Made by a program: the position numbers and the translations under genes
In this document: piece after piece, positions 3,479-18,940 of the stretch
Layout: each line of letters opens with the position of its first letter
Numbering within the stretch: position 1 is the stretch's first letter
Notes under the pieces: model-generated
Databases searched by the model: none
What the model saw: only the letters and a program-made list of their open reading frames with translations
What the model was told of the DNA's origin: nothing
IMG/VR virus record: IMGVR_UViG_3300030102_002859
Coordinates: 1-24,163 of that record
Length of the DNA: 24,163 nt
Reading direction: 5' to 3' (one strand)
From: a virus

Positions 3479-3605
3479 CCCAGGACTCTACGCCTCGGTT
3501 AAGGCTCAGGCTAAGAAAAAGTTTGACGTGTATCCTTCTGCGTATGCAAATGCCTGGCTAGTTAGGACTTACAAGAAAAAAGGCGGAGGATACAGGCGTG
3601 GCTAA
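3450..3605 (+). CDS. Small basic conserved phage protein, YPSAYAN-WLV family (51 aa)
   Basis: This is a 51-residue gene with ATG at 3450 and AAGAAGAAG upstream inside the preceding gene. The product has a conserved-looking core: NPGLYASVKAQAKKKFDVYP, SAYANAWLVRTYKKKGGGYR. This pattern is widespread in phages and large DNA viruses as a small protein of unknown function. It overlaps the preceding gene by 29 bases and the next one by 8. The high Lys/Arg content suggests nucleic-acid contact, as an inference only. Confidence 0.75.
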   Translation: MAKVKNIPTNPGLYASVKAQAKKKFDVYPSAYANAWLVRTYKKKGGGYRRG

Positions 3606-3852
3606 ACCAGGCGGTTTGACCAAGTGGTTCTCTGAAAACTGGGTAGACATAAGCGCTAAGAAAAAAAATGGAAAGTTTCAAAAATGCGGTAGATCTTCTG
3701 CGAAAGGATCTAAGCGAGGATACCCAAAGTGTGTACCAGCCAGTAAGGCGGCAAGCATGACTAAGTCTCAAATCAGATCAGCTGTATCTAGGAAACGCAG
3801 AGTGAGACAGGGCGTGGGCGGAAAACCAACAAACGTGAGAACCTTTGCCTGA
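3598..3852 (+). CDS. Small basic conserved phage protein with CGR/YPKC motifs (84 aa)
   Basis: This is an 84-residue gene that starts with GTG at 3598; GGCGGAGG, 8 bases upstream, supports this start. The product has GGLTKWFSENWVDISAKKK at its N-terminus, then CGRSSAKGSKRGYPKC (residues 30-45), then a long basic tail ending GGKPTNVRTFA. The two Cys flank a basic loop, but two ligands alone do not make a standard zinc site. I recognise the pattern as a recurring small family in marine phages without a known role. Stop and next start overlap as TGATG. Confidence 0.75.
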   Translation: MAKPGGLTKWFSENWVDISAKKKNGKFQKCGRSSAKGSKRGYPKCVPASKAASMTKSQIRSAVSRKRRVRQGVGGKPTNVRTFA

Positions 3853-4124
3853 TGGTAGCCAAGAAACACCAAAATCCCAAAGGAGGACTTAACGCAGCTG
3901 GCAGGGCGCATTTCAAGCGCAAAGAAGGATCTAACCTTAAAAGACCTGTTAAGTCTGGGACCAATCCAAGACGAGTATCTTTTGCGGCAAGGTTTGCTGG
4001 GATGCGTGGTGCGATGAAAGACTCCAAAGGGAGACCTACTAGGAAGGCGTTGGCTCTCAGAGCCTGGGGATTCCGATCAGTAGAATCTGCTAGAAATTTT
4101 GCAAATCGTAATAAAAAATCGTAG
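3852..4124 (+). CDS. Small basic conserved phage protein (90 aa), possible DUF6321-type
   Basis: This is a 90-residue gene, ATG at 3852 within TGATG. The product begins KKHQNPKGGLNAAGRAHFKR, then NLKRPVKSGTNPRRVSFAAR, FAGMRGAMKDSKGRPTRKAL and a C-terminal helix. From memory this resembles the DUF6321 family (K-G-G-L-x-x-x-G-R-A, G-P-M-K-D-x-x-G-R-P-T-R-K-A), with no assigned function. It has no Cys and is extremely basic. It closes the chain of five tiny genes; a weak hairpin follows. Confidence 0.75.
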   Translation: MVAKKHQNPKGGLNAAGRAHFKRKEGSNLKRPVKSGTNPRRVSFAARFAGMRGAMKDSKGRPTRKALALRAWGFRSVESARNFANRNKKS

Positions 4125-14491: not shown

Positions 14492-15076
14492 ATGGCGCAA
14501 TACGTAGCATTAGCATTAACAGCAGTCTCAGCATACAGTCAGTATCAACAAGGCAAAGCTCAACAACAAAGACTCAACAGACAAGCAGAGCTTGTTGAAT
14601 TACAAGGCAGGAGCAAGGCTGTAAGTCATAAACAGGATGGTATTAGAATACTTGACTCTATGTTAGAGCAAATGTCTTACGCTAACGCATACGCAGGAGC
14701 AGGATCTGTAGATGCTTTCTCTGGATCAAAGCTAGGCGTTGGTTTATCTTTACAAGCCAAAGGATTAAGAGAGTTTAATATTAATGGATATAACTCAACT
14801 ATTGCGCTTGATATGTCTAATCATCAAGCAGAAATGTTGAGGTATGAAGGCAGGATAGCTAAAAAACAAGGGAAAATAAATGCTCTAACTACTATGGCTA
14901 TGGGTACAGCGTCTATATATGGGGCTGGAGGTTTTAGCGGATCAGGCGCAGGGGCAGGCAGCGGAGTACAAACAACTCAATATATGCAACAAGGAAGTTT
15001 GCCTCAAACAAGTTTTTCTCAACCTAGTATGAATATTGGATACACTACTTATCAACCACAAATGAGTATATATTAA
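14492..15076 (+). CDS. Internal virion protein (T7 gp14-like)
   Basis: This 194-residue protein lies directly after the tail tube genes, the position of T7 gene 14. That class is ejected to form a pore in the outer membrane. AAGGAG precedes ATG at 14492 by 6 bases. The N-terminus is weakly hydrophobic (YVALALTAVSAYSQYQQGKA), followed by Gln-rich helices, a middle region with AYAGAGSVDAFSGSKLGVGL, and a Gly/Ala-rich, Gln-rich tail. The early S-A-Y-x-Q-Y-x-x-G helix is common in gp14-like proteins. Outer-membrane insertion is inferred from the family, not shown. Confidence 0.75.
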   Translation: MAQYVALALTAVSAYSQYQQGKAQQQRLNRQAELVELQGRSKAVSHKQDGIRILDSMLEQMSYANAYAGAGSVDAFSGSKLGVGLSLQAKGLREFNINGYNSTIALDMSNHQAEMLRYEGRIAKKQGKINALTTMAMGTASIYGAGGFSGSGAGAGSGVQTTQYMQQGSLPQTSFSQPSMNIGYTTYQPQMSIY

Positions 15077-15078
15077 TT

Positions 15079-17121
15079 ATGGCAGTAAAAAACATAAAAT
15101 ATAAACCACTTGGAGCAAAGCTACAAACTGTGCCAGGCGTTCAGTATGGAACTGGCGAAGAGAGAATGTATGGTAGTTTATCAAACAGGATCAATCAGCT
15201 AACTAACATAGCAGTTAAACAAGTGTCCAGAGATGCTCAATTAAGAGCAGCGGAAGACGCAGAAAAGTACCAGGCATTTATCCAAGAAGAAGATGGCAGC
15301 TTAACTTTCAACGATGCGCCACAAACAGGTACTACTGATTATGATCTAGCTTACTACAAAGCTGCGCAGCAAAACGCAAGATATCAAATAGATACGCTTT
15401 TTCAAGAAAAATTACAAACAGCGTTTTTAAAAAATAAATACGACCCACAAAGTTTTAATGCAGAAACTACTGATATTAGAGATGGTTTGTTGTCATCTAT
15501 ACAAGAAAAAAACCCAGCAATGTTTAACTATTACAAATACGATTTTGATCAAAAAATTTATGCAGCCAGCAAAAACGTATATGCTAATTATGCAAAGCAG
15601 CAAGAAGATATAGCAAGCATCTCTTTTAGAAATATTGTAGATTCTGGTCATATAGAAAGCATGTTTGAGGTATATAGAAACAGTCCTCAGGCAGCAATCA
15701 ATGTTGGCAAGTTTATCAACAATGCTTTTGGAAGTTACATACAACATGGACCATCTACAGCGTTTATAGCAGGCGGTGTATCTTTTGATGCAGACGATAC
15801 AAGAAGTAATTTATTTAGCGCTGAAAAAATGAATAAAGAACTTCTTTATGCTAGATCAAGATTTCAATATCATTATCTTGCTGATAAATTTACAAATCAA
15901 TTTGAGCATGGCGATATTAATGGTTTGGTAAAAGAGCTGTCAGCTATTAGATCTGGCGAATACATAACAAAAGATTTTTTTGCACCTATGATGGCAGAAG
16001 ATGGATCTACAATACTTGGTAACGAAGAAACTAGCATATCGCAACTAGGTTTTAGCGAAGAGCAAAGAAATAATTTGGCTGATGAAATATACAAACAAGT
16101 TATTTTTGAAACAGAAAAACTCAATTCTCTTACAGATAAACAAAACCAAAGAAACAAAAATCTTTTAAAACTTGAGTCTAGAGCAATTATGACAGATATA
16201 TATAATTATCTTGACGAAGGTATGCAGAATAGATCTACAGAAGATTTGATTTTTAACAAGATAAGACAAATTGAAAGACAATATCCAACAGTAGATGCAA
16301 AAGAAATTACTGATCCACTAAGAGCTTTGTTGTTAGATAAAAACTCAGGACCTACTGATGATCCAGTAATTTTATTTGAATACATGAAACAAGCAAGAGA
16401 TGGCGAATTAGATTATAGCGAGATGCTTTATTCTCCAAAACTTACTAGAAAATCAAAAGCAAAAATTATTGAAAAATCTTTAAATATACAACTAGGAGAG
16501 GAAGATTACACAGACTCTGGTATATACAAAAGAGGCATGAAACATATTACAAAATCAGAAGATGGGATTGGATCTTTCTTTTTTGGAGGAGGCGACAACA
16601 CAAAAGAACTGAAAGGAATATATAGCAATCTGCATTTAGGTCTGGAAGGCGAGGGTTTTAATTTTAGCAGACAAGATGTTAATTCAAATCACATTGGTAG
16701 AATTATCGATAATTTATCAAAAACAAATATGCTTGCAACTGACAAACAGTCTTTTAACAGACTTGCTGGAGCTGGAAAAGAAAAATCAGACGATTTAAAA
16801 AGATTTGAAAATATAACAGAAAGAATAAGACAAGAACGAATTAAGCTAACAAGAGCTACTTCTGATGAAGAAAGACAACCTATTTTAGATCGGATAGCAG
16901 AAGAGCAAGAAAAGTTAAAAGTATTCGACATGAATAAAATTAGGGCAGAACAAAAAGAAATGGAAACATCTAATATTAAATACGTTCAAGGTAGATCGTA
17001 TTATAAAACAGGAAACTTTGTATTCGAGCTTAATTCTGACACCATACAAGATTTATTAATGACAAGTGAAGTAGTGCCTGAGGCAGAAAAACAAAGATAC
17101 AGGGAATTATTTGGAGAATAA
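15079..17121 (+). CDS. Internal virion protein (T7 gp15-like), 680 aa
   Basis: This is a 680-residue protein starting 2 bases after the preceding stop, without a clear ribosome binding site, so re-initiation is likely. T7 gp15 (747 residues) spans the periplasm during DNA ejection. The N-terminus (MAVKNIKYKPLGAKLQTVPG, then RMYGSLSNRINQLTNIAVKQ) and the helical repeats (QNARYQIDTLFQEKLQTAFL; AMFNYYKYDFDQKIYAASKN) fit gp15-like proteins. A long coiled coil occurs around residues 575-635 (RIRQERIKLTRATSDEERQP and following). No enzymatic motif is visible. Confidence 0.8.
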   Translation: MAVKNIKYKPLGAKLQTVPGVQYGTGEERMYGSLSNRINQLTNIAVKQVSRDAQLRAAEDAEKYQAFIQEEDGSLTFNDAPQTGTTDYDLAYYKAAQQNARYQIDTLFQEKLQTAFLKNKYDPQSFNAETTDIRDGLLSSIQEKNPAMFNYYKYDFDQKIYAASKNVYANYAKQQEDIASISFRNIVDSGHIESMFEVYRNSPQAAINVGKFINNAFGSYIQHGPSTAFIAGGVSFDADDTRSNLFSAEKMNKELLYARSRFQYHYLADKFTNQFEHGDINGLVKELSAIRSGEYITKDFFAPMMAEDGSTILGNEETSISQLGFSEEQRNNLADEIYKQVIFETEKLNSLTDKQNQRNKNLLKLESRAIMTDIYNYLDEGMQNRSTEDLIFNKIRQIERQYPTVDAKEITDPLRALLLDKNSGPTDDPVILFEYMKQARDGELDYSEMLYSPKLTRKSKAKIIEKSLNIQLGEEDYTDSGIYKRGMKHITKSEDGIGSFFFGGGDNTKELKGIYSNLHLGLEGEGFNFSRQDVNSNHIGRIIDNLSKTNMLATDKQSFNRLAGAGKEKSDDLKRFENITERIRQERIKLTRATSDEERQPILDRIAEEQEKLKVFDMNKIRAEQKEMETSNIKYVQGRSYYKTGNFVFELNSDTIQDLLMTSEVVPEAEKQRYRELFGE

Positions 17122-17122
17122 A

Positions 17123-18940
17123 ATGAGTGATAGAATAACCTTGCCGCCAATAAATGTATACCCAGGACCTATTGAAAAAGATGTGAAGGTCCAGGATCGT
17201 AGAAATATGGTAGATAATTTGGACAGCGGAGATCATATTGATCGAGCAGTACAACTTAGACATTATGAAACAGAAAAGTTAGATCCAAAAAATGTAGCAG
17301 CAGATACTGAAAGACAGTCAAATATCGATCTTGTTAATGACGCTGTAAAAGAAGGAAATTACAAATCAGCTGAAATATTAAAAGACACAATAGAGTTTGA
17401 CGAAAAAGAAAATAATTTTGTAGAAGAAGTCGGAGCAGTCATAGGACATGGATTACAATCAGCGGTTAATAATATATTTGTATTAGGCGAAGATTTAGAT
17501 AGATTGACTGGCATAGGAGCTTTTGTATACCACAATGGTGAGTTTGATTATTTAACAAGACAAGAATTAGATGATCTAGGAGAAGGTTATGATCCATATA
17601 AACTAGATTTAGTAGATGCTCCTCAATCTATAACAGGTAACGTTTTATCTGGGATGGTATCATTTATGGTCCCTTATGTAAGTTTCTTAAGAATGACAAA
17701 AGCAAACACTGCTGGAGGAAACTTATTTAGACATTACTCGGCTGGCGCTGTAGCCGATTTTATGTTTGATCCTAAACATGGAAACCTATCTACCTTAATG
17801 GTAGAAATGGGCGTTGCAAATGATTTTATAAAAGCCTTAGATAGCAGTCCAGAAGATATAGATCAGTTTGAAAAAGATATAGTGGCAAAATTCAAAGCCA
17901 GAGGTAAACAAACCGCAGAAGGAATATTTATAGGAGCAGCTATAGGGACAATCGCAGCAACTGTTAGAATAGCATCGCAGTTTCCAGGGTTTGTAGAAAA
18001 TGCTAAAAAACACATAAACTCAGCAATCAATCAAGATACACAAGGAGCAAAATCTTTTTATGATAATTATTTAGAAAAAAGAGGCACGACAGATCCACGA
18101 AGATCTGATTCAGTGTCCTTAGAAAAACTTAAAAAAGATATTCAGTCTTTAAAATCAGGAGAAGAGGTAACAAGCACCTCAAACTTATCAGATGTCAAAC
18201 CCACAGATTCTAGTAACTTAGATGATGCTGGAGGTGCGTCAGCTACCTCAGCAACTGAAAAAAGACCTTCTGCTGATTTGAATGATGACGTAGTCTCATC
18301 CCAAAAAACAGACGACATAGAGTCTTTGGATAAGCCAACTACTGATCCATCTACGACTGATGGTGGTATTAATAAACGTTCCATACAAGATTATGATACC
18401 ACAGATGAAATATTAAAAATAGCAAGAGACAACAAAAGTGAATTAGATCAAAAGATAACAGATCTAGCCTCTGATTATAAGGTTTCTTTAAAATCTAGAA
18501 TAAAAGACATAGAAGGCTTAAACGAAAAACTTACAAGGCAAAACAAAAATCCTAATGAAATAGGAGATTATCTTGGTCAAAGAATTATATTTGATGATCC
18601 TAGTGAGTTTGCAAACAACGTTAGTGATTTTATAACAAAAATTAGAAACAACTATGAAGTGTTAGAAATAGATCCAAAATTAGAACTTAGAACTATACAT
18701 ATACAAATAAAACACCCATCAGGCATAAGCAATGAATTACAAATAAGACCTAAGTACGTTGATTCAATACTAGAAAAACAACACATAGATTACTATTCAC
18801 CTGCTAAAAAATTAATGACTATATACAAATTTACGCCTGCGCAAGAAAGATATGTTTATAGAGTATATAATAGAACTCTTACTGAAATGAGAAGGATAGA
18901 GGCTAGTTTAAATATGAATATGAATGAGGTATTTCGATAA
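17123..18940 (+). CDS. Internal virion protein with C-terminal RelA/SpoT-like domain
   Basis: This is a 605-residue protein. ATG at 17123 follows GGAG by 7 bases, so the in-frame TTG at 17111 is not needed. Residues 1-160 are charged and helical; 160-290 hold hydrophobic stretches (GNVLSGMVSFMVPYVSFLRM and GIFIGAAIGTIAATVRIA) that could insert into membrane. Residues 320-425 are a Ser/Thr/Asp linker. Residues 430-562 resemble the RelA/SpoT synthetase fold: R459-x-K461, GDYLGQRIIF with D482, LRTIHI with H526, ELQIRP with E538, and H554 with Y557. The usual guanine-stacking Tyr of the G-Y-x-S-x-H motif is Leu522. It sits between gp15-like and gp16-like genes, so packaging and ejection are inferred. 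Catalysis is unproven. Confidence 0.8.
   Translation: MSDRITLPPINVYPGPIEKDVKVQDRRNMVDNLDSGDHIDRAVQLRHYETEKLDPKNVAADTERQSNIDLVNDAVKEGNYKSAEILKDTIEFDEKENNFVEEVGAVIGHGLQSAVNNIFVLGEDLDRLTGIGAFVYHNGEFDYLTRQELDDLGEGYDPYKLDLVDAPQSITGNVLSGMVSFMVPYVSFLRMTKANTAGGNLFRHYSAGAVADFMFDPKHGNLSTLMVEMGVANDFIKALDSSPEDIDQFEKDIVAKFKARGKQTAEGIFIGAAIGTIAATVRIASQFPGFVENAKKHINSAINQDTQGAKSFYDNYLEKRGTTDPRRSDSVSLEKLKKDIQSLKSGEEVTSTSNLSDVKPTDSSNLDDAGGASATSATEKRPSADLNDDVVSSQKTDDIESLDKPTTDPSTTDGGINKRSIQDYDTTDEILKIARDNKSELDQKITDLASDYKVSLKSRIKDIEGLNEKLTRQNKNPNEIGDYLGQRIIFDDPSEFANNVSDFITKIRNNYEVLEIDPKLELRTIHIQIKHPSGISNELQIRPKYVDSILEKQHIDYYSPAKKLMTIYKFTPAQERYVYRVYNRTLTEMRRIEASLNMNMNEVFR
18410..18808 (+). other. RelA/SpoT-like nucleotidyl pyrophosphotransferase domain
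   Basis: This region encodes residues 430-562 of the third internal protein. Landmarks in order: SLKSRIKDIEGLNEKL, IGDYLGQRIIFDD, LRTIHIQIKHPSG, NELQIRP and EKQHIDYY. Order and spacing (Asp482 to Glu538 is 56 residues, Glu to His554 is 16) agree with RelA/SpoT synthetases. The Tyr of the guanine-binding motif is Leu and QIRT is QIRP. Confidence 0.75.

Follow-up and report, generated by a model that had tools for sequence, protein, structure and literature searches.

The window (the whole stretch of 24,163 nucleotides analysed here) comes from a short-tailed, T7-like podovirus, probably marine. In its structural block, genes for terminase, portal (PF12236, 4e-98), scaffold, capsid and tail tubular proteins A and B precede a gp14-like gene, and a 3'-open frame past the gp16-like gene has the appearance of a tail fibre. 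The nearest cultured relative by portal (62% identity) is MEP301, a phage of Methylophilales (OM43) (PMC8024684), and our guess of a marine methylotroph-type host is based on this relationship. At 3852-4124 the window encodes a small protein that strongly matches DUF6321 (PF19846, 8e-25).

The gene under study lies within the gp14-gp15-gp16 block, as for a T7-like ejection (internal virion) protein; we call its position the slot. The original prediction had placed it between gp15-like and gp16-like genes. The gp16-like side has sequence support, a weak match (3e-6) to an 'internal virion protein' of Synechococcus phage S-CBP42, whereas the gp15-like gene is assigned by its position. Coordinates of all features are collected in Table 1.

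Table 1. Features of the slot gene and its neighbours in the window
Feature	Position	Strand	Basis
gp14-like internal virion protein	14492..15076	+	PHROG 418, E 6.5e-14
gp15-like protein	15079..17121	+	Position only; without family match
Slot protein (605 aa), made up of N-module, linker and RelA-like domain	17123..18940	+	ORF, GGAGA, full-length homologues
N-terminal module, residues 1-342	17123..18148	+	Alignable with slot proteins bearing other C-termini
Ser/Thr/Asp-rich linker, residues 343-423	18149..18391	+	Composition; phylogenetic signal switches here
RelA/SpoT-fold domain (predicted), about residues 424-597	18392..18913	+	Profile and model; PF04607 core 18494-18793
D482, catalytic Mg-binding Asp position	18566..18568	+	Invariant
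L522, acceptor-stacking Tyr position	18686..18688	+	Leu/Thr/Ile in all 11 homologues
E538, catalytic Glu position	18734..18736	+	Invariant
gp16-like internal virion protein, 1107 aa	18940..22263	+	Weak match and conserved order

The slot gene starts with ATG at 17123, and a Shine-Dalgarno-like GGAGA is present upstream (17113-17117). Full-length homologues of its product were found in the related contigs L002 (81%) and L087 (74%) and, at about 28-30%, in L008, L093, L096, L097, L100 and L101. The N-terminal module (N-module) aligns with slot proteins that have other C-termini, in L083 and L080 and more distantly in L030, L025 and L014. Its structure prediction was uninformative (pLDDT 38), and the membrane-like helices ascribed to this part proved marginal, the best 19-residue Kyte-Doolittle means being 1.61 and 1.31. 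The linker is as described before, with 51% Ser/Thr/Asp/Asn. The RelA domain has a GC content of 28%, compared with 35% for the N-module and 38% for the whole window.

The RelA/SpoT-like domain was recovered by profile search, with a PF04607 match over residues 458-557 (31.9 bits against a cut-off of 27, E 1.8e-7). PF04607 is also above cut-off in the slot proteins of L002, L087, L038 and L093, whereas of 27 proteins encoded in this slot in related contigs, 23 have no match to it; the match in the window is therefore not due to chance. At E<=0.1, PF04607 was the only Pfam family found in the slot protein of the window, and no MuF domain was detected. A single-sequence PDB search with the domain reached only E 0.35, and a profile built from 11 homologous domains was needed to retrieve GTP pyrophosphokinases (1.2e-6). 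The AlphaFold model of the domain (pLDDT 80.7, pTM 0.77) has synthetase topology. Among the 50 Foldseek matches to the PDB that were listed, all are RelA/SpoT-family synthetases, the best being RelP (E 4e-7), and they include RelQ, Rel, SpoT, Tas1, CapRel and an exported synthetase. TM-scores across these 50 listed matches are moderate (0.42-0.68), which fits a distant relationship. Profile and model together indicate that the C-terminal domain of the slot protein has the RelA/SpoT fold. Viral proteins of the same fold are present in BFVD; several have 400-1300 residues, and some are named RelA/SpoT, DdrB-like or ART-PolyVal-like. Bacterial and archaeal genomes yielded no relative, nor did phages when searched by tblastn with the L093 and L038 domains; PADLOC gave no match, and NCBIfam gave nothing near a cut-off.

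All the motifs named in the original prediction are present: the RxK motif of the ATP site (R459-x-K461), D482-Y-L-G485-Q-R487, R523-T-I-H526, E538-L-Q-I-R542 and H554/Y557. Both catalytic acidic residues, D482 and E538, are invariant across 11 homologues, and K461, K469, H526, Q540, R542 and H554 are invariant too in every homologue that covers them (11 sequences). A profile hit above cut-off, a fold match and conservation of D482 and E538 are the computational outcomes that the original prediction had asked for, and they support it. R459 (now Asp), G485 and R487 are lost in the L008 subclade, where the RelA domain may be degenerate. In six pairs, dN/dS of the domain is 0.15-0.26, some pairs being near-saturated at synonymous sites (dS up to 1.3); these values indicate constraint, and the domain appears to be under purifying selection. 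The GxR, T/SxH and IR positions match the guanosine-type RSH consensus, unlike those of the adenosine-type Apk2, which has GxN, RYT and YH (PMC12226406). Unlike canonical (p)ppGpp synthetases, the slot domain has no acceptor-stacking Tyr in the G-loop. The replacement noted earlier at Leu522 extends to all 11 homologues, none of which has Tyr at this position. In toxSAS enzymes this residue is Y128 (FaRel2), Y143 (PhRel2) or Y175 (FaRel), and in a known toxic synthetase a change from Tyr to Phe already impairs activity (PMC11782079). Given this impairment and the lack of Tyr in all members, the enzyme may be inactive or may use an unusual acceptor.

The gene order gp14-like, gp15-like, slot, gp16-like is kept across about 30 IMG/VR contigs, which were collected by capsid similarity. 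Slot proteins in the first survey have 317-1274 residues, several being cut by contig ends, and many of them share an alignable, weakly conserved N-module of about 270-340 residues. Pairwise BLAST ties the N-module of the window only to L002, L087, the L008-type proteins, L083, L080 and the start of L009. RelA C-termini are present in the window, L002, L087, L038, L093, L101, L099 and the L008/L096/L097/L100 group. There is a Methyltransf_23 C-terminus in L037, a DUF7178-like one, just under cut-off, in L014, a region common to portal/ParB-type PHROGs in L046, L065 and L082, and a virion-structural region in L009. The slot proteins of L039, L132 and L133 have no cargo domain, and further contigs carry unassigned C-termini. 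Single-linkage clustering of the C-termini merged nearly all of them because tails are shared, and coverage-based grouping was used instead. It divided 49 C-terminal parts into 13 groups, a number that is not a tally of distinct enzymes since some small groups are truncated sequences. RelA is carried on two distinct N-module subtypes, represented by L038 and the window. In L099 it is followed by a tail 61% identical (146 columns) to that of the non-RelA slot protein of L030, and the L093 tail is common to L103-type proteins (79% over 33 residues).

These comparisons indicate that several C-terminal modules alternate in the slot, the RelA domain among them, and C-termini that differ in one slot suggest an enzyme cargo that can be exchanged and that enters together with the phage DNA. 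What appears to be new here is one slot with related N-modules and very different C-termini in about 30 contigs; RelA domains in MuF toxins and in polyvalent proteins were already known. MEP301 has no PF04607 match, so this phage type can do without the domain. MEP301 gp25 was considered as an empty slot protein and rejected, with no significant similarity.

Two further observations concern other C-termini. The tail shared by L030 (C-terminus to 7626) and L099:1-750, with YRVVP...GDYVALTKK..., has an ADP-ribosyltransferase-like look and no Pfam match above cut-off. The C-terminal parts of the slot proteins in L046 (15596-16093), L065 and L082 are possible very distant RelA-like domains; L046 matches the window at E 2e-6 as a single pair, without Pfam confirmation.

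Informative sites among the window, L002 and L087 were sorted into patterns uniting window and L002, window and L087, or L002 and L087. The N-module (53/75/144) and gp16 (156/189/318) favour L002 with L087, and the RelA domain (125/39/26) favours the window with L002. The chi-square p of 7e-25 for N-module versus RelA domain is only a guide because neighbouring sites are not independent. The signal switches between codons about 341 and 421, in the linker, and fades past about 565, near the gene end, so the exchanged piece has almost the same extent as the RelA domain. The patterns point to exchange of this domain by recombination among the three close relatives. Such exchange, together with the alternative C-terminal modules, is the larger point that the original prediction missed. 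The most striking case is that of contigs L008 and L009 (L008:7183-8802 and L009:11983-15804). Their identity is 96.7% along 7.67 kb, but from a point within the slot gene onward no similarity can be detected; with only one such junction, and that in metagenome assemblies, a chimera could be the cause. Elsewhere, a segment of L002 ttpB (about 3560-3920, alignment codons 181-300) is divergent, with 51-62% nucleotide identity to the window and L087, which are 79-87% identical to each other in the same segment.

A close parallel in architecture is found in the MuF toxins, including the biochemically characterised MuF-RelA toxins such as Apk2, which pair a phage-head-associated N-terminal part with a RelA-fold pyrophosphokinase tip and whose C-termini vary between phages (PMC12226406). 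The slot protein differs in having no MuF domain and in occupying a podovirus ejection-protein slot. In addition, Apk2 has the immunity genes IapK and Aph1 hydrolase adjacent to it, whereas the next gene here is gp16-like, and no PF13328 alarmone hydrolase was found in five related records, which may be incomplete. The article by Iyer et al. 2017 (PMC5512222) reports RelA/SpoT and ParB-type domains among phage polyvalent proteins, mosaic proteins thought to enter with the DNA, as well as RelA in MuF fusions, and proposes host shut-off by alarmones. The slot proteins share this mosaic architecture and would be delivered likewise. The RelA cases there are, unlike ours, from spirochaete and epsilon-proteobacterial (pro)phages and from MuF fusions; the passages concerned describe no fixed slot between gp15-like and gp16-like genes of a T7-like podovirus, and the term 'internal virion' is absent from the article. 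The toxSAS proteins (FaRel2, PhRel2, CapRel) share the RelA synthetase fold, and CapRel and Tas1 are among the Foldseek matches listed. They are, however, proteins of toxin-antitoxin or defence systems and have the acceptor Tyr, whereas the slot domain lacks it and its neighbours are virion genes. An inhibitory region fused to the slot domain is possible. The block has the genes and order of T7 gp14, gp15 and gp16, except that the slot adds one gene between the last two. Ejection proteins are known to swap domains in mosaic fashion (PMC8954989). In the open-licence literature on virion, ejected and marine-phage proteins we found no report of a RelA-type domain in a podovirus ejection slot.

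Our preferred reading, to which we give about equal chances of being right or wrong, is that the slot protein is an ejected effector of modular build and that its RelA-fold tip transfers pyrophosphate to a nucleotide or nucleic acid as infection begins. The N-module would ride with the gp14/gp15/gp16-like internal core, and the protein would leave the virion together with the DNA. The C-terminal part of T7 gp16 is believed to reach the cytoplasm (PMC8954989). The C-terminal tip would be an exchangeable enzyme, in the window a RelA/SpoT-fold pyrophosphotransferase that may move pyrophosphate from ATP onto the 3'-OH of a nucleotide or nucleic acid in the host cell. The product could be an alarmone-like nucleotide or a modified RNA, and its formation in the first moments of infection could alter host translation, nucleotide signalling or defence. 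In this scheme we infer packaging, cytoplasmic ejection, catalytic activity, the identity of the acceptor and the benefit to the phage. Packaging is a reasonable proposition, given that the slot position within the internal-virion block is conserved in about 30 contigs. A more specific version, in which the slot is an ejectosome cargo position with tips swapped in the linker and the Tyr-less RelA tip is a new-acceptor pyrophosphotransferase delivered with the DNA before phage gene expression, is put forward only tentatively, and we consider it rather less probable.

The strict synteny between gp15-like and gp16-like genes also bears on a late-expressed intracellular enzyme, unpackaged and lying in the virion gene block by chance. 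Packaging does rest on synteny, but an unpackaged enzyme would have to account for this order and for an N-module that is conserved though the C-termini differ, and of the alternatives we consider it the least probable. The RelA-fold domain might instead be a pseudo-enzyme that binds some partner, such as a defence protein, a nucleotide, RNA or DNA. None of the 11 homologues has the acceptor Tyr, and the L008 subclade has lost three more motif residues; yet both acidic residues and the EXQXR/H set persist down to about 22-29% identity and selection on the domain is purifying, and we regard the loss of catalysis as unlikely.

Somewhat more improbable is a polyvalent or MuF-like toxin that serves not to take over the host for the phage's own growth but to act on competitors or on phages infecting the same cell (superinfection exclusion). 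MuF-RelA toxins produce (p)ppApp and show toxicity in E. coli (PMC12226406), and the exchangeable C-termini resemble those of polymorphic toxins, but the slot protein has no MuF domain. In L087, L002, L038, L097 and L101, one of 34 kb and all from records that may be incomplete, there is neither a PF13328 alarmone hydrolase nor a PF00589 tyrosine integrase, and MEP301 has no PF00589 either. A prophage-style toxin-immunity pair is therefore not indicated in these possibly incomplete contigs, which makes a lysogen-borne pair less likely.

If the ejected-effector reading is correct, some podoviruses use the ejectosome to deliver a pre-made, exchangeable enzyme, comparable to the delivery of Alt by T4. 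The range of RelA effectors brought in by phages, with examples in MuF and polyvalent proteins, would then extend to the T7-like ejection block, and natural cargo variants on related carriers would become available as a set. It would also raise the question of which substrate a RelA-fold enzyme modifies when it has no acceptor tyrosine.

The only match to the domain in a phage record is nvie-Pro1-6 of the Nitrososphaera provirus Pro-Nvie1 (32%). As in the window, this RelA-like domain is found in a virion gene cluster, there adjoining the portal gene. The protein is small, in contrast to the slot protein, with about 210 residues, and keeps the Tyr in GYRGYH. The RelA-like gene of this thaumarchaeal provirus, at L004:5813-6445, is annotated 'Rel_Spo-like'.
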